Positions 1-7,105 of a stretch of DNA of 21,835 nucleotides are shown in pieces (positions within the stretch are counted from its first letter, which is position 1; every line of letters starts with the position of its first letter). Source of the stretch: a virus. The translations under genes and the position numbers were made by a program. A model generated the notes under the pieces. That model did no database searches. It saw only the letters and a list, made by a program, of their open reading frames with translations, and was not told where the DNA came from. The stretch is from IMG/VR virus record IMGVR_UViG_3300006990_000192, positions 1 through 21,835 of that record; one strand, given 5' to 3'.

Positions 1-164
1 CGTTCGTTTTCTTTTTGTATCCAATCCTGTAGTAGAGATATATAAATTTCCCTCTCCCACGGTATCATATTTTCCAATTCAGATAAACTGTATTGGTGAT
101 GTTGCATCATTGCAAAGTTAGTCTTATAATGGTTTACAAGACTTTCATGTGAGAGGCCTAGGTA
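1..164 (-). CDS. gp51: gp51-like hub assembly protein, expressed as -1 frameshift extension of gp26 (partial, runs off window)
   Basis: On the minus strand an open frame starts at the T run that ends gp26 and continues off the window edge. It reads ..FFYLGLSHESLVNHYK.. then ..SLSELENMIPWEREIY.., a pattern I recognise from gp51-type proteins of marine T4-like phages (from memory). This frame is closed by a TAG at 173-171, just upstream of the T run, so it opens only at the slippery site. The protein-like sequence starts well before the first Met codons (110-108 and 107-105), and those have no visible ribosome-binding site. I infer that it is made mainly as a gp26-gp51 fusion by -1 slippage, like lambda G/G-T. 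T4 gp51 acts catalytically in baseplate hub assembly. At least 54 post-slip residues are in view; the C-terminus is outside. Alternative: independent initiation at 110. Confidence 0.72.
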
Positions 165-856
165 AAAAAACTAGCAATCCCCTTTAATTCAACATCATTT
201 TTTTCACTACAATTAACACAATCAAATTTTACATTATGTGTTATTGCCGGTAGTTCCTCAAAGAATTGTGTTATCTTTTGGAATTGACCACTGTTTAATC
301 CATCAATAAATTCATTTAATTCTTTTTCACTATAAGAATTTGCTGAATATACATTGTCTGCATCGAATATATTCTCAATACATAATCCAATAATTTTCAT
401 CATCTCTTTAATTCCGCCTTCCTGATTCATATCTTCGACATCATTGATTGATGGGTATCTCATAGTAACGCCAACATCATCAGTTAATTTAATAATGGAA
501 TCAACACTTCCATCAGGTAGTTTGATTTCATCTAGGTCAATGTTTATATCATTAAGTGTTTCGCAAGCGGTACACTTTAATCTAACATCAATCTTTTCAC
601 CAACTGATTTCGATCTTAAAGCTAAAAATAAAGCTTCAATATCAAACATAGCAAGTTTTTCAACATTTATTTCATCAAGTACGCAAGCCTTGATAACATC
701 TTTTACGGCTCTCATAATTTGCTTATTGTCCTGGGACTCCATAGCAAGCATAAGAATCTTTTCCTCTTTTACAAGGTAAGGTCTAAAAGTGACCTCTTTA
801 TTCAGCGATGGTACCATTGTGGTATATTTCGCTGTATTTAATTGTGGCAAAGCCAT
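158..856 (-). CDS. gp26: Baseplate hub assembly protein gp26 (T4_baseplate family)
   Basis: A 232-residue protein matching the T4 gp26 family (T4 gp26 is about 208 aa), needed to assemble the central baseplate hub. The N-terminus (MALPQLNTAKYTTMVPSL) and the general plan are typical of marine T4-like homologues. Two CxxC pairs (Cys95/98 and Cys213/216) could form a zinc ribbon joining the middle and the C-terminal end. The start at 856 has a strong Shine-Dalgarno sequence (AGGAGA) upstream and follows the gp54-like gene by 22 bp. The last codons are AGT TTT TTT ACC TAG, a T7 run at which a -1 slip would replace the C-terminal Thr with a gp51-like extension. The protein is therefore probably made in short and long forms. 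Identity is from remembered family resemblance. Confidence 0.82.
   Translation of the reverse strand: MALPQLNTAKYTTMVPSLNKEVTFRPYLVKEEKILMLAMESQDNKQIMRAVKDVIKACVLDEINVEKLAMFDIEALFLALRSKSVGEKIDVRLKCTACETLNDINIDLDEIKLPDGSVDSIIKLTDDVGVTMRYPSINDVEDMNQEGGIKEMMKIIGLCIENIFDADNVYSANSYSEKELNEFIDGLNSGQFQKITQFFEELPAITHNVKFDCVNCSEKNDVELKGIASFFT
164..170 (-). promoter_or_regulatory. Candidate -1 programmed ribosomal frameshift slippery heptamer T TTT TTT
   Basis: The minus strand carries seven T residues, phased T TTT TTT in the gp26 frame, two codons before the gp26 stop (160-158). This fits the X XXY YYZ rule for tandem -1 slippage: both tRNA-Phe can re-pair perfectly. After a -1 slip the next codon is TAC at 164-162, leading into the gp51-like frame. 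The -1 frame has a stop at 173-171, so the only overlap between the two frames is the few bases around this run. I found no convincing stem-loop just downstream. Confidence 0.7.
179..184 (-). promoter_or_regulatory. Internal Shine-Dalgarno-like stimulator (AAGGGG) upstream of the slippery run
   Basis: Read on the minus strand, AAGGGG lies within gp26 and ends 8 nt before the T7 run. In E. coli dnaX a similarly placed internal Shine-Dalgarno element raises -1 frameshifting by pairing with 16S rRNA. No start codon sits at the right distance to use it for ordinary initiation, so a frameshift-stimulating role is the simplest reading. In an A+T-rich genome a four-G run is conspicuous, but chance is possible. 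Confidence 0.5.
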
Positions 857-878
857 AATATTCTCCTATAATATAATA

Positions 879-1514
879 TTAACCAAATATATCAAGTGCT
901 GCCCTGATACCACTGCCTGTACTGCTTAATGGTCCTTCAGGAACAAATTTGTCATATGCAAAAGTCACACTCATTTTTACAACATCCTGGCCATCCTGAG
1001 ATAATTCAATACCTTCAATGGCAGTGGGAAAGGCTTTTATAAGCTTTGTCCCATAAACAGGAGTATTTTGCTCATCTAACTGTTGTATAATTAGATCAAC
1101 CGCATAATTATTTTTATATCCTACGATATAATTATCTGCGGAAAAAATATTTGACATCCAATTGTCAAACATCTTTCTCATATAATAATCATTTGTCAAT
1201 AGGAACGATACTGTTACATCGTCATCGATAAATGTATATGGAAATTTATTACTTTGTTTAAAATCTTGATGTTCAAAGGTACTAATATTTCTACCCGGTA
1301 GTGTTATACTTTGACATAAAATAGATATATCTCTTGGGTCATTTATTAGATTATCCTTTTCAAAATTACCTGATATTATTGAACCTATAATACTATCAAG
1401 ATTTATATTTAATATTGACTGAGACGGTGGTGTAAAAATTACATTAAATCTGTTTGATTTTGCTAGTCCACCTTTTTTACTAATGGTTGATTTTAAATTT
1501 TCGATACTACTCAT
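879..1514 (-). CDS. gp54: gp54-like baseplate-tail tube initiator / tail-tube-fold protein
   Basis: A 211-residue protein with the landmarks of the T4 tail-tube fold family (gp19, gp48, gp54): a start like SNRFNVIF (residues about 21-28), the strand motif SITLPGRNIS near residue 70, and the C-terminal strand pair FPTAIEGIELSQDGQD followed by VTFAYDKF, which parallels T4 gp54 (PELSYDGDNQ then VTFAYR). T4 gp54 is about 320 aa, so this is a shorter version without the long C-terminal tail. In T4, gp54 binds gp48 on top of the hub and starts tail-tube polymerisation. The ATG overlaps the stop of the upstream gene (TAATG), with GAGAAG as ribosome-binding site. The alternative is another tube-fold subunit (gp19-like); the baseplate context favours gp54. 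Confidence 0.6.
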   Translation of the reverse strand: MSSIENLKSTISKKGGLAKSNRFNVIFTPPSQSILNINLDSIIGSIISGNFEKDNLINDPRDISILCQSITLPGRNISTFEHQDFKQSNKFPYTFIDDDVTVSFLLTNDYYMRKMFDNWMSNIFSADNYIVGYKNNYAVDLIIQQLDEQNTPVYGTKLIKAFPTAIEGIELSQDGQDVVKMSVTFAYDKFVPEGPLSSTGSGIRAALDIFG

Positions 1515-2617: not shown

Positions 2618-3433
2618 ATGGCTACAATAGTATTTCCACCAAGCTTAAGAACATCTGGTCCCGACGGAGAAGGATTACCAACAATCAGATTTAGTGCAAG
2701 TAAAAAAGGCGAAGGTGTAGGAGAATTTGAAAATGTTCAATTATACATGCCATCAGGGTTACAATTTCAGGATAGTGCACAGTATAATAACATTGATTTA
2801 GGTGTTATACAGGCAGCAAGAGGATTAGTAAAAAGGACAGATGGTACATTTGGTTTTAATGATTCATTAAAAGGAGACCAACTCGAGGTTGCAGGATTAA
2901 AACTAGCTGATAAATTAGGTGCTGACCAATCACTAACAGGAGCTACAGCATTAAGTAAAGGTATCGCATTTAATCCACAAACTGCATTAGCATTTGAAGG
3001 GGTAAATTTAAGAACATTTTCATTTGCATTTACTCTTGTACCAGAATCAGAAAAAGATTCAAAGACCATTAGACAAGTTGAAAACTTTTTTAGGAAATAT
3101 CTCTACCCAGAGGTAAACGGATTTGTTGCACATTATCCACCAATTTTTTCTATTAGATTTTATGATGGTGTTAATGGCGATACAGAAAGCAGATATATGC
3201 CTATGATACACGATTCATATTTAACAGGTATGGATTTACAAATCAACCCAGAAGGAAATAGTTTTCACAAAACAAGCAATGGTTATGCACCAACTGCAAC
3301 TCAATTAACATTATCATTTGCTGAAGGCAGAATGCTTTCTAGGCATGATATATACAGAAAAGGTTCCTTGGAATATAATACAGATAGGCCAAACTCAGCA
3401 GGTATAACAGCCGAGACTAGTGGAGAAGGATAA
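2618..3433 (+). CDS. gp48: Baseplate tail tube cap gp48
   Basis: A 271-residue protein resembling gp48 of marine T4-like phages (T4 gp48 is 364 aa). Typical blocks are the N-terminal VQLYMPSGLQFQDSAQYNNI (residues about 41-60), the strand FSFAFTLVPESEKDSKTIRQ in the middle, YPPIFSIRFYDG, and the C-terminal ATQLTLSFAEGRMLSRHDI. In T4, gp48 caps the hub, binds gp54 and joins baseplate to tail tube; it shares the tail-tube fold. It is the first gene of the plus-strand operon, with AGGA 8 nt before the ATG and its own late promoter. The next gene overlaps it by one base (TAATG). Confidence 0.78.
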   Translation: MATIVFPPSLRTSGPDGEGLPTIRFSASKKGEGVGEFENVQLYMPSGLQFQDSAQYNNIDLGVIQAARGLVKRTDGTFGFNDSLKGDQLEVAGLKLADKLGADQSLTGATALSKGIAFNPQTALAFEGVNLRTFSFAFTLVPESEKDSKTIRQVENFFRKYLYPEVNGFVAHYPPIFSIRFYDGVNGDTESRYMPMIHDSYLTGMDLQINPEGNSFHKTSNGYAPTATQLTLSFAEGRMLSRHDIYRKGSLEYNTDRPNSAGITAETSGEG

Positions 3434-4245
3434 TGAGTTTTTTTAAACAATTTCCAAAAATAGATTACGATTTTAGAAATACAGGTACAAATCAAAAAAT
3501 GACGGATATTTATAGAAGTATTCGTGTTTTACCAACCTTTTTAGACCAAATATCTGGTTATAGATTTTATGAAATAGCAAATGGAGAAAGACCTGACATT
3601 GTATCACAAAGGTTATATGGTACAGCCAATTATTATTGGACATTTTTTGTTGTAAATGATTTTTTACATGATGGTTACAGAGCATGGCCAATGAGTCAAG
3701 AACAATTAGCGGCCTACCTTGCAAAAGAATATGAAGGATATGTTATTACAACAAACACAATCGTTCGTACTAATTCAGATGGTATTATTACCGACCATGA
3801 AAATAGTATAGCAGGTAGATTTCAATTAGGCGAAACTATTACTGGTGCCACATCTGGTGCGTCAGGAACATTAACCAAGAAGAACATTGATATGAATCAA
3901 TTAGTAATACAGAATGTGACTGGTAATTTTATTGGTAATCCGGATTTAGTACAAAACGAAACTGAATCAATTATTGGTGCCACATCAGACGATAATGTTT
4001 CAACATATCAAGCTTTTAAATATATAGATGCCCCGTATTATTATTTCCTTGAAAATGATGCTAATAAAAAACCAGTAAGTAATGCAGTCTTTGTAACTGG
4101 TGGTACACCACAAAGCGATTTGGCATATCAAACATACCGTGATTATGAATTTGAATTAAATGAGCAAAGGTCAAAAATTCGTTATATTGACCCTAATTAT
4201 ATAGAACAATTTGTAAATGATTTCGAAGAACTTTTAAATGAGTAG
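3433..4245 (+). CDS. gp53: Baseplate wedge subunit gp53, with an internal beta-module insertion
   Basis: The N-terminal 105 residues match gp53: MTDIYRSIRV (23-32), SGYRFYEIANGERPDIVSQR (41-60) and LYGTANYYWTFFVVNDF (61-77), paralleling T4 MTDIFR.., AGYRLRTYYI and IYGNPQLYWVLLMCND. The C-terminus (ELNEQRSKIRYIDPNYIEQF) matches the T4 end. T4 gp53 has 196 aa and locks neighbouring wedges together; this one has 270. Much of the difference is an insertion at residues about 127-190 (GETITGATSGASGTL..NVTGNFIG) that resembles modules in other proteins of this window. Ribosome-binding site GGAGAAGG; the start overlaps the gp48 stop. Confidence 0.85.
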   Translation: MSFFKQFPKIDYDFRNTGTNQKMTDIYRSIRVLPTFLDQISGYRFYEIANGERPDIVSQRLYGTANYYWTFFVVNDFLHDGYRAWPMSQEQLAAYLAKEYEGYVITTNTIVRTNSDGIITDHENSIAGRFQLGETITGATSGASGTLTKKNIDMNQLVIQNVTGNFIGNPDLVQNETESIIGATSDDNVSTYQAFKYIDAPYYYFLENDANKKPVSNAVFVTGGTPQSDLAYQTYRDYEFELNEQRSKIRYIDPNYIEQFVNDFEELLNE

Positions 4246-5566
4246 TGCAATAGGAGCAACAAGAGTTGTTGATGGCAACTCAGTCACACCAACCAGTTAT
4301 GTAGTCTCAAAGGCTATATTAAATACCAATTCAGGATTAGAATTAGATATATCTAATGTTGTTAATAGATTTTATATTATAGAATCCATTAATAATCCAT
4401 TCCTTGAAATGGATATACAAATAGTTGATGGTGCTAACTTATTAGAAGAACATAAAATTAATGGTAATGAAAAAATCTCTATTACAATTCAAAGAAATCC
4501 TATAAAAAATAGTGAACAAAATAAAATTAAATGGGAATTAAACTTAAGAATTGCAGAAGTATTTGGATATGTAAAGGATTTACCAACAAAACAATTTTAT
4601 AAATTTAAATGTGTATCAGAACATTTATATATTAATGCATCTAAAACTCTAGTAAAACCATTTGATGGTACGATAGGTACATTAATAAAAAAAATATGTA
4701 AAGATGATTTAAAAATAAAAAAATTTAATGTTAATACAAGTAGTAAAAATAATATTAAAGGAATATATCCACGTATCAGACCAATCCAGGCAGCAAATTG
4801 GTTATTAGAAAATGCATTCGAAGATAATACACATTTTTATTTTTGGGAATCAATATTAGATGGTGTACAATTAGATTCATATAAAAATTTAATAAACAAT
4901 AAGGTATATAAAAAATTAGAATTTAAACCTGGATTTAAATATGATGTAGGCACACCTGAATCATATGACGAACAGTCAAAAAGAATTAGAACAATAACTG
5001 GCCCTTTAGGTATGGGTAAAATGGCTCAAATATCAAGAGGTACTTATGCTTCTACATTACATACTGTTGATATTGCAGAGAAAAAATACGAAAAGTTTTT
5101 TTATCCAAAAAATACAACTAACAAGAGCAAAGGTGATAAGGTACATAAATTAAATAAAGAGCAACCATGGAATAGTAAAGATAAAATTGATGACCAAACA
5201 TATGACCAATTAAGAAATAGTAAAAATTATTTTGTATCACTTAATTCTAAAGCTTTTAACTTAGATAATTATCATGGTCCAACTAAACCAACATTGTTAA
5301 AAAATGAAGCTCATAAAAATTCATTATTATTTCAAAATTTTACCATTACAATACCTGGTGATTTTGAAATGAAGGCTGGCCAGATAATCGAAATGGATGT
5401 TATTAAATCATCTACATATGAATACTTAGGCGAACCAAAAAGTATGATTGACACATATATATCAGGTAAATATATTATTAAAAAAATTACTCATACTTTT
5501 GACCAAGAATTTTTATCTGAAGTCGAAATTATGAGAGATTCAGTGGGAGTAAAGATTAATGCGTAG
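4238..5566 (+). CDS. gp27: Baseplate central hub protein, gp27-like
   Basis: A 442-residue protein directly upstream of the gp5 spike gene. It begins with a tube-like beta domain (VSKAILNTNSGLELDISNVV, residues about 23-42; FLEMDIQIVDGANLLEEHKI) and continues with IRPIQAANWLLENAFEDN (residues about 182-199), a block typical of gp27/gpD-type hub proteins. T4 gp27 has 391 aa; three copies form the torus that holds gp5 and mimics the tail tube. The identification rests on these motifs and position, without an alignment. It is the most A-rich and Lys/Asn-rich gene here. It overlaps gp53 by 8 bp and gp5 by 8 bp, suggesting translational coupling. Confidence 0.65.
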   Translation: MSSAIGATRVVDGNSVTPTSYVVSKAILNTNSGLELDISNVVNRFYIIESINNPFLEMDIQIVDGANLLEEHKINGNEKISITIQRNPIKNSEQNKIKWELNLRIAEVFGYVKDLPTKQFYKFKCVSEHLYINASKTLVKPFDGTIGTLIKKICKDDLKIKKFNVNTSSKNNIKGIYPRIRPIQAANWLLENAFEDNTHFYFWESILDGVQLDSYKNLINNKVYKKLEFKPGFKYDVGTPESYDEQSKRIRTITGPLGMGKMAQISRGTYASTLHTVDIAEKKYEKFFYPKNTTNKSKGDKVHKLNKEQPWNSKDKIDDQTYDQLRNSKNYFVSLNSKAFNLDNYHGPTKPTLLKNEAHKNSLLFQNFTITIPGDFEMKAGQIIEMDVIKSSTYEYLGEPKSMIDTYISGKYIIKKITHTFDQEFLSEVEIMRDSVGVKINA

Positions 5567-6110
5567 TGACCAATTTATAGGTGGAGATTTTACTTGGTTT
5601 ACAGCTGTAGTGGAAGATATAAATGATACAGATAATTTAAATCGTGTAAAAGTACGATGCCATGGTTGGCATACAGATGATACAACAATTTTAAAAACGA
5701 GTCATCTACCTTGGGCAACAGTAATAATGCCTGTTACTTCAGCATCAATACAAGGTAATGGTGGCAATCATCATTTAGAAGTAGGTTCATGGGTCGTAGG
5801 ATTCTTTAGAGATGGACCAAGTGCTCAGGACCCTATAATAATGGGTTCAATTGCTACACAAACAAACGGTACACAAGATATACCAACGGAATCATCAGTA
5901 GATAATAAAGTATATAAATCAAAAGCAGGCCATTTAATTGAAATTGATAATACATCTGATGATGAAACATTAAGTGTAACTCATGCAAAAGGTGCAAAAA
6001 TAACTATTGATAAAGATAATAATTTATCGATTACAAATAGTGGTACAACAAAGATTGAATCAGATGGTATTATAACAATTAAATCAGATATTAAAACAAC
6101 TATAATATAA
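5559..6110 (+). CDS. gp5: Central spike gp5, OB-fold plus short beta-helix, no lysozyme domain
   Basis: A 183-residue spike. The N-terminal OB fold is clear: FIGGDFTWFTAVVEDINDTD (residues 6-25), NRVKVRCHGWH (28-38), SHLPWATVIMPV, then EVGSWVVGFFRDGPSAQDPI (74-93), as in T4 gp5 and VgrG proteins. The C-terminal part (about 118-183) has the alternating pattern of a triple beta-helix needle (GHLIEIDN, KGAKITIDKDNNLSITNSG, GIITIKSD). T4 gp5 is 575 aa because a lysozyme domain sits between these parts; here the OB fold passes into the needle through a short linker, so no muramidase is present. It probably trimerises and sits under the gp27-like hub. No PAAR tip gene is seen nearby. Confidence 0.82.
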   Translation: MRSDQFIGGDFTWFTAVVEDINDTDNLNRVKVRCHGWHTDDTTILKTSHLPWATVIMPVTSASIQGNGGNHHLEVGSWVVGFFRDGPSAQDPIIMGSIATQTNGTQDIPTESSVDNKVYKSKAGHLIEIDNTSDDETLSVTHAKGAKITIDKDNNLSITNSGTTKIESDGIITIKSDIKTTII

Positions 6111-7105
6111 TGACTATTCCTGCTATATCATTGCCACAAATTGAATGTCCTGGCGTTTTATTACCAACGCCGGCAAATTTAAGAAACCTATTTGGTGGTT
6201 TGGCTACTCATGCTTATCGATATGAAATAGATAGTTTAAAAGATGAGCTTGAGCGTATACGTTCTTTATTAGATATATATGACCCAAATTTTGAGAAGAT
6301 AGAAATACCAGAATTAGAATGGGAAATCATGATAACACGATTATCATCAGAATATCCTATGTATATTCAACAAAAAATATTATCATTAATTAATGATTTA
6401 TTTCCAATTGATTTTAATGTTACAATACTTGGTATTCAAATTGACATATTGGAATTTTTGGCTAATCCAAATAGTGTTTTGGATAATATATCATTAGATG
6501 AAGTTGATAGTATCTATGATTTAATACCAAGTGAATATAAAGTATGGAATAAATTTGATACTGCAGATTTTAAGAAAGAATCAATACGAAATTATATTAG
6601 GTCAGAGGTCGCTAAGAAAATGAATTTATTAATGAGTGGTGGATTTTCAGGCCTTATTGATTTATTCGATGAAATATGGGATTCATTAGGGTTACCATCA
6701 TTTCCAGGATTACAAGATATTGATTTAGAAGCTCTAATAAGAGATAAAACACTAGAGGAATTAGAACAGGTTCAAATATTTGGATTTAGTTTATTAGATT
6801 TACTAGGTGGTAAATTTGATGATAGTGTAGAGATACCAGAGTTTCAAAAAGAAAGATTATTAAAAAGAGCAAGAGAATTTACTGAGGAATGGCAAACATA
6901 TTTGGTAAAATTATGGATGCAAAAGGTAACATCGTTTTTCGATGCAATTGGATTAGGTTCAATAACTCAATGGATTACATTTAATTTCTGTAATTACCTT
7001 ACATTGGTTGGGTTTCCAAAGACAATAGATTTACCAGATTCAGTACAAATATTAATTAACAATACAGAGAGTCCACTTCCAAATACAACGGAAACCTCTG
7101 ATTAA
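6110..7105 (+). CDS. Unrecognised virion protein encoded between spike and gp25
   Basis: A 331-residue acidic, mostly helical-looking protein that I cannot assign. Visible: a proline-rich N-terminus (MTIPAISLPQIECPGVLLPT), a helix with heptad character at about residues 37-60 (YRYEIDSLKDELERIRSLLD), an amphipathic segment around YPMYIQQKILSLINDLFPID, a Leu/Ile/Phe-rich middle (LGLPSFPGLQDIDLEALIRD) and a C-terminal WQTYLVKLWMQKVTSFFDA. It has no signal peptide, no clear membrane segment, no CxxC and no PAAR-like repeats. Its TAATG overlap with gp5 and position before gp25 point to a hub or inner-wedge role, or an assembly chaperone. Not T4 gp28 by anything I can see, but that cannot be excluded. 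Confidence 0.6.
   Translation: MTIPAISLPQIECPGVLLPTPANLRNLFGGLATHAYRYEIDSLKDELERIRSLLDIYDPNFEKIEIPELEWEIMITRLSSEYPMYIQQKILSLINDLFPIDFNVTILGIQIDILEFLANPNSVLDNISLDEVDSIYDLIPSEYKVWNKFDTADFKKESIRNYIRSEVAKKMNLLMSGGFSGLIDLFDEIWDSLGLPSFPGLQDIDLEALIRDKTLEELEQVQIFGFSLLDLLGGKFDDSVEIPEFQKERLLKRAREFTEEWQTYLVKLWMQKVTSFFDAIGLGSITQWITFNFCNYLTLVGFPKTIDLPDSVQILINNTESPLPNTTETSD

Follow-up and report, generated by a model that had tools for sequence, protein, structure and literature searches.

We analysed a 21,835-nucleotide (nt) stretch of viral DNA (IMG/VR record IMGVR_UViG_3300006990_000192, positions 1 to 21,835; hereafter the window), in which a minus-strand gene coding for a gp26-type protein of T4-like phages is followed by a reading frame of the gp51 type. 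We consider it highly likely, with a probability of about 0.93, that the gp26 gene gives rise both to a short gp26 and to a gp26~gp51 fusion via a -1 ribosomal slip at a run of seven Ts. Most ribosomes would stop at the TAG at 160-158 and release gp26, the short chaperone, while a minority would slip back by one base, with both tRNAs on U_UUU_UUU (170-164), and read on in the -1 frame. A Shine-Dalgarno (SD)-like element 8 nt upstream would pair with 16S rRNA and probably aid the slip, and a downstream RNA structure may also aid it. The analogy with lambda G and G-T suggests that the short form coats the tape-measure protein and that the long form, through its tail, brings in tail-tube or hub subunits. 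We infer the slip and its rate, as well as the roles of the stimulators and the chaperone function.

On the minus strand, gp26 ends GAA TTA AAG GGG ATT GCT AGT TTT TTT ACC TAG, with the T7 run (170-164) phased T_TTT_TTT in the gp26 frame. Since a TAG lies at 173-171 in the -1 frame, that frame opens exactly at the heptamer. An upstream -1-frame TAG is also found in seven related loci (L005, L052, L053, L064, L070, L072 and L075) and is not general. From position 170 the -1 frame stays open to the window edge, over 56 codons (FFYLGLSHESLVNHYKTNFAMMQHHQYSLSELENMIPWEREIYISLLQDWIQKENE), and holds no ATG, GTG or TTG before codon 20. The window ends inside the tail. In the closest relative (L005, gp26 86% identical) the tail is 65 codons long, so that the fusion would be ~294 amino acids (aa) in length. 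Every coordinate of the preliminary description was reproduced here, including the gp26 ending, the phase of the run, both stops and the AAGGGG 8 nt upstream (Table 1). Bare T7 runs are unremarkable in this AT-rich DNA, with 10 in the window against 27 expected, and the composite signal TTTTTTTNNNTARGCCTYTC occurs once, with none expected. The decisive test of the signal is conservation, not the chance count, and conservation is complete.

Table 1. Positions of the predicted frameshift locus and its flanking elements in the window
Feature	Position	Strand	Evidence
gp26, short tail-assembly-chaperone form (TAC-N), 232 aa; ATG 856-854, stop TAG 160-158	158..856	minus	PF12322, phrog_150, AlphaFold2 model
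Slippery heptamer U_UUU_UUU, X_XXY_YYZ phase relative to the gp26 frame	164..170	minus	direct reading; T6 plus T, C or A in relatives
0-frame stop TAG, one codon past the run; ends the short form	158..160	minus	direct reading
-1-frame stop TAG, adjoining the run on its upstream side	171..173	minus	direct reading
-1-frame tail of gp51 type, predicted C-terminal extension of the long form (TAC-NC); cut by the window edge	1..170	minus	phrog_634; codon-position divergence
SD-like AAGGGG, 8 nt before the run	179..184	minus	AGG/GGG spacing; anti-SD duplex energy
Tail-tube-type protein gene, directly upstream of gp26	879..1514	minus	phrog_45 tail tube, 2.9e-37; PF06841, 7.3e-8
Candidate stimulatory stem, 5' arm CCTCTC, starting 7 nt after the heptamer	151..156	minus	candidate only
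Candidate stem, inner part of 5' arm, CATG	146..149	minus	candidate only
Candidate stem, inner part of 3' arm, CGTG	58..61	minus	candidate only
Candidate stem, 3' arm GAGAGG	51..56	minus	candidate only

Conservation of the slippery site and of both reading frames

Related loci were collected from IMG/VR, 80 by gp26 similarity and 160 by the tail alone, and were supplemented with 13 relatives from GTDB contigs and ~20 stretches from named phages. The resulting junction set comprises 185 distinct sequences, which fall into 57 clusters at 80% nucleotide identity; one set of 118 distinct junctions was collected by the tail alone, using a query without the Phe-Phe pair. Codon tests were performed on subsets (71 window-like loci and 89 distinct gp26 genes), as were those on RNA structure (68-92 sequences).

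A comparison of related junctions had been proposed in the preliminary description as a check, and a slippery heptamer was present in 185/185, as TTTTTTT (99), TTTTTTC (81) or TTTTTTA (5) and in no other form. In every one of these 185 junctions the 0-frame stop starts 7-13 nt downstream of the first T of the run, and the -1 frame is open and conserved. The heptamer was found in the cyanophages S-PM2, P-SSM4, S-SM1 and syn9, as well as in Methylophilales phage Melnitz-3, Pseudomonas phage pf16, Sinorhizobium phage phiM12, Aeromonas phages 65, Aeh1 and CC2, Cronobacter phage S13 and Vibrio phage nt-1; the Aeh1 junction, for example, reads GAT TTT TTC GAC TGA, followed by a gp51-type tail. Rhizobium phage RL2RES carries TTTTTTG at the site.

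The Phe-Phe site reads T_TTT_TTY in 89/89 distinct gp26 genes, compared with 2/71 of the other Phe-Phe pairs in these genes, in which TTC makes up 26% of the other Phe codons. Synonymous escapes from the slippery run were used in none of the junctions. Where the second Phe is replaced by Leu, the codon is TTA (TTG in RL2RES), so that T6 is kept despite the change in protein.

Both reading frames carry signs of selection. Divergence in -1-frame codons 2-19 amounts to 0.117, 0.091 and 0.403 at the three codon positions, that is, the third position diverges ~4 times faster than the first two, and the tail peptide is conserved. This is the pattern of a protein-coding frame, and it begins one codon past the slip site, ahead of the first ATG. 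The wobble base of -1 codon 3 (Leu, Val or Ile) is A in 71/71 loci; since this A is needed only for the 0-frame stop, the short product is selected as well. Conservation of the run together with both frames strongly supports selection on a slip site, and the conserved heptamer, stop, -1 frame and SD-like element strongly support programmed -1 frameshifting by comparison.

Initiation, candidate stimulatory elements and alternative routes to the tail

Public records of P-SSM4, S-PM2, S-SM1 and syn9 annotate a separate gp51, an ATG just past or overlapping the stop is seen in a few genomes (S-PM2, nt-1 and S-CRM01), and the Vibrio phages K364 and BX-1 show TAATG with no T6 run. These observations favour a gp51 that is a separate short gene with its own initiation, or that is reached by re-initiation after the gp26 stop. 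Across the junctions, however, the -1 frame lacks an ATG before tail codon 18 in 168/185 and a start codon of any kind in 149/185, which bears out the earlier remark that gp51 has no credible independent start, and -1 codons 2-19 are under protein selection yet lie ahead of the first ATG. The internal ATG (tail Met 21) has a mean anti-SD energy of -0.95 kcal/mol, compared with -6.5 at gp26 starts, and by this measure is without a ribosome-binding site. Re-initiation, moreover, leaves the retention of TTTTTT in 185/185 unexplained. We conclude that independent initiation or re-initiation is very unlikely to be the source of the tail.

The end of the AGG/GGG motif lies 8-9 nt before the run in 177/185 junctions. 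The duplex of this SD-like element with the anti-SD sequence has a mean energy of -5.5 kcal/mol; the corresponding values are -1.4 for the rest of gp26 and -6.5 for gp26 start sites. A conserved Lys/Arg/Glu-Gly pair explains part of this signal, so that we only infer a stimulator role: the element probably pairs with 16S rRNA and helps the slip. Its fixed distance from the run points to the ribosome and thereby argues against slippage of RNA polymerase on the T run, which would yield transcripts with altered U number and a fusion translated from edited mRNA. A T7 homopolymer is indeed present, and a -1 product could arise from transcripts of altered length, but 86/185 junctions have six Ts only, followed by C or A, and the runs usually needed for transcriptional slippage are longer than six Ts. 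Transcriptional slippage is thus even less probable than independent initiation.

A homopolymer error in sequencing or assembly, with gp26 and gp51 really in one frame, had been named beforehand as an outcome that would overturn the frameshift, and the junction does hold a homopolymer in a contig of metagenomic origin. This explanation fails, since relatives conserve both the 0-frame stop and the -1 tail, and many of them read T6C or T6A. The break in frame, with its conserved 0-frame stop, recurs across 185 distinct junctions, which come from many projects as well as from cultured phages and include T6C forms, and we regard an error as extremely improbable. An untranslated remnant of T4-type gene splitting, which the two separate genes of T4 might suggest, is just as improbable for the -1 tail, given the excess of third-position divergence in codons 2-19 (~4 times that of the first two positions) and the conserved tail peptide.

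Downstream of the run, the RNA of window-like phages exceeds synonymous-codon shuffles in stability (mean z -2.3; gp26 control -0.7). A stem recurs there in which CCTCTC.CAYG pairs with CRTG.GAGAGG, ~90 nt on, in Pro-Trp-Glu-Arg codons; the outer stem is intact in 40/68 sequences and lost in 28/68. Covariation in the stem (CTC with GAG, CTT with GAA; CCTTTC with GAAAGG) exceeds that of shuffles and is not significant, because the telling base changed independently only three times on the tree. RNAalifold gave no structure when 92 core sequences were folded together, and returned the inner part of the stem unprompted from 70 window-like sequences. The long-range stem is therefore treated here as a candidate only for stimulating the slip. 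Two other pairings were rejected: GCCTCTC with an upstream AGAGGC in place of the distant arm, for which covariation was no higher than in shuffles, and a perfect 10-bp hairpin in the window (AGTCTTGTAA/TTATAAGACT), which is not conserved (71% of cells paired, zero covariation).

A separate observation concerns the sequence GCCTYTC (window 151-157, minus strand), just past the 0-frame stop. All 71 window-like loci have a C as the last base of -1 codon 4 and CTC or CTT as -1 codon 5, two codons that make up only ~23% of Leu codons elsewhere in the tail. This constraint exceeds the need of the protein, and the candidate stem accounts for only part of it.

Several points weigh against programmed slippage in the window and its relatives. 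A study by Vladimirov et al. (2022) reportedly argues, to go by its title, for a non-frameshifting mechanism in T4-like phages. At cyanophage-type loci the RNA past the run showed no excess stability of the kind seen in window-like phages (z -1.2, control -1.1). In the distantly related Vibrio phages K364 and BX-1, the TAATG overlap joins the same two frames without a T6 run. Finally, U_UUU_UUU is reported to shift much less readily in E. coli than A_AAA_AAG does (PMC5009743).

The K364 and BX-1 stretches are L090:2214-2405 and L101:2236-2420 (BX-1 belongs to the Ackermannviridae), and their small open reading frame (ORF) is only a possible homologue of the gp51 tail. In Salmonella phage Vi01 (L091:2290-2470), gp26 ends ATT TTC ATT TAA and is accompanied by an open -1 frame (NFHLIFEIDLLSYF...) without a heptamer or a usual start codon.

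A broader scheme can be put forward tentatively, and we hold it to be doubtful as a whole. T4-like phages might alternate among -1 slippage (marine phages, cyanophages and several Straboviridae outgroups), gene duplication with an in-frame tail (T4 and Aes508) and TAATG coupling (Ackermannviridae-type vibriophages), and the slip in the window's group might be driven jointly by the SD-like element before the run and by a stem enclosing ~100 nt of mRNA from 7 nt past the heptamer.

Protein identities and neighbouring genes

The window's gp26 matches PF12322 (T4_baseplate) at 1.2e-63 and 215.2 bits (curated cut-off 24.5) and phrog_150, 'baseplate hub', at 2.2e-70. The -1 tail belongs to the gp51 family, matching phrog_634 ('baseplate hub assembly catalyst') at 4.7e-25, and it also matches the end of phrog_150, at 8e-8. 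In T4, genes 26 and 51 are separate, divergent genes, and the end of gene 26 (TTC TTT) is not slippery. Both T4 products match PF12322 and align with each other at 2e-6; in T4 gp51 the PF12322 match covers residues 1-201 (3.9e-52), and a match to phrog_634 covers the last part. T4 gp51 thus consists of a gp26-type body with this tail in frame, so that in T4 the short and the long form each have a gene of their own, and a gp26~tail fusion is a real protein elsewhere. By these matches, the window's 'gp51' corresponds only to about the last fifth of T4 gp51. The preliminary description had cast gp26/gp51 as the T4-type equivalent of lambda G/G-T; the chaperone-pair reading and the separateness of the T4 genes stand, while its 'gp51' has to be redefined as a C-terminal part only, the first ~200 residues of T4 gp51 being a gp26 paralogue. 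Hub assembly in T4 requires gp51, yet the protein is not part of the phage particle (PMC3004832).

An AlphaFold2 model of gp26 had a mean pLDDT (predicted local distance difference test) of 84. For residues 1-95 of the model, the best four of 789 PDB chains were 3fgx, 2ob9, 3klu and 5ir0 (Z 7.8-5.2, next 2.8). Only 2ob9, the tail assembly chaperone of HK97, is titled as a chaperone, and since all Z scores are below 8 the match is moderate; the other three, 3fgx, 3klu (YqbN) and 5ir0, we take to be chaperone-like, which their PDB titles do not state. A search of the PDB by sequence found no relative. The model thus argues, with moderate strength, for an HK97 chaperone-like fold of the N-terminal domain. 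As in a chaperone pair, the short and long forms (gp26 and gp26~tail) would share their N-terminal body, as far as can be judged by sequence only. Two CxxC pairs in gp26 (residues 95-98 and 213-216) are invariant in 33 window-like phages and may form a zinc site; in marine cyanophages, Melnitz-3 and others they are replaced by an NPxT-type turn.

With regard to the order tube, chaperone, tape measure, a tube-type gene lies upstream of gp26. In L017 (2.8e-12) and Melnitz-3 (1.8e-6) a downstream ORF is tape-measure-like, and several genomes carry a small intervening ORF. No tape-measure match was found downstream in L005, and cyanophages have an endolysin-like ORF at this place.

Elsewhere in the window, on the plus strand, positions 5559-6110 code for a short (183 aa) protein of the gp5 type, 'baseplate hub subunit and tail lysozyme', whose lysozyme domain seems to be absent because the match covers only the N-terminal part of the profiles. 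A 331-aa ORF (6110-7105, plus strand), without a PHROG match, lies between this gene and a gp25-like baseplate gene. A gp53-like baseplate wedge protein (3433-4245, plus strand) carries an insert (residues ~125-193) with a weak match to a tail fibre family.

Relation to known systems and significance

Compared to T4, the window has the same two families, the same tail and, as predicted, a short and a long form with a common gp26-type body; the difference is that T4 uses two separate, divergent genes and the window would use one gene with one slip site. Frameshifted tail assembly chaperones, including those of HK97 and P2 E/E', were reportedly described by Xu, Hendrix and Duda in 2004. The likeness to lambda G/G-T and other -1 frameshifted chaperones lies in a similar place between the tail-tube and tape-measure genes and in the HK97-like N-terminal fold predicted for gp26, which is larger than lambda-type chaperones and has a second domain, with CxxC pairs in the window's group. 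The lambda slip sequence differs from that of the window. The E. coli dnaX cassette likewise has an SD-like element upstream of its heptamer, as a stimulator. The window's heptamer is U_UUU_UUY/A, not A_AAA_AAG, and no simple conserved hairpin follows closely after the run; the candidate stem spans ~100 nt and is not general.

This idea has been put forward before. Frameshifting of the lambda type in tail chaperones is textbook knowledge (reviewed in PMC5009743), and passages in PMC10885494 and PMC12846349 credit T4-type tail assembly chaperones and their poly-T slip sites to Vladimirov, Gautam and Davidson (2022; doi 10.1016/j.virol.2021.11.003), the former also noting that some T4-like phages have a short gene and a fused long gene, and the latter that TAC-N genes of T4-like phages can contain such poly-T sites. 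In the portions of their paper available to us, Sullivan et al. (2010; PMC3037559) describe a cyanophage gp51 (T4-GC 12) that lacks the N-terminal ~200 residues and give it as missing from Aeh1, and propose no frameshift. This cyanophage 'gp51' is the same tail, annotated as free-standing and read here as a frameshifted extension of gp26; in contrast to the 'missing' of that study, the tail is present in Aeh1. If the tail is part of a fusion, both the short cyanophage gp51 and the 'missing' Aeh1 gp51 would be accounted for. A joined coding sequence was annotated in none of the ~20 phage records examined.

The value of the finding is mainly one of annotation correction, the underlying principle being already established. 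If the frameshift is true, 'gp51', which is a tiny free gene or is omitted in hundreds of cyanophage and marine phage records, would be the C-terminal part of a frameshift fusion. The gp26 locus would then be a clear case of frameshifting and gene duplication as alternative ways of keeping two isoforms.
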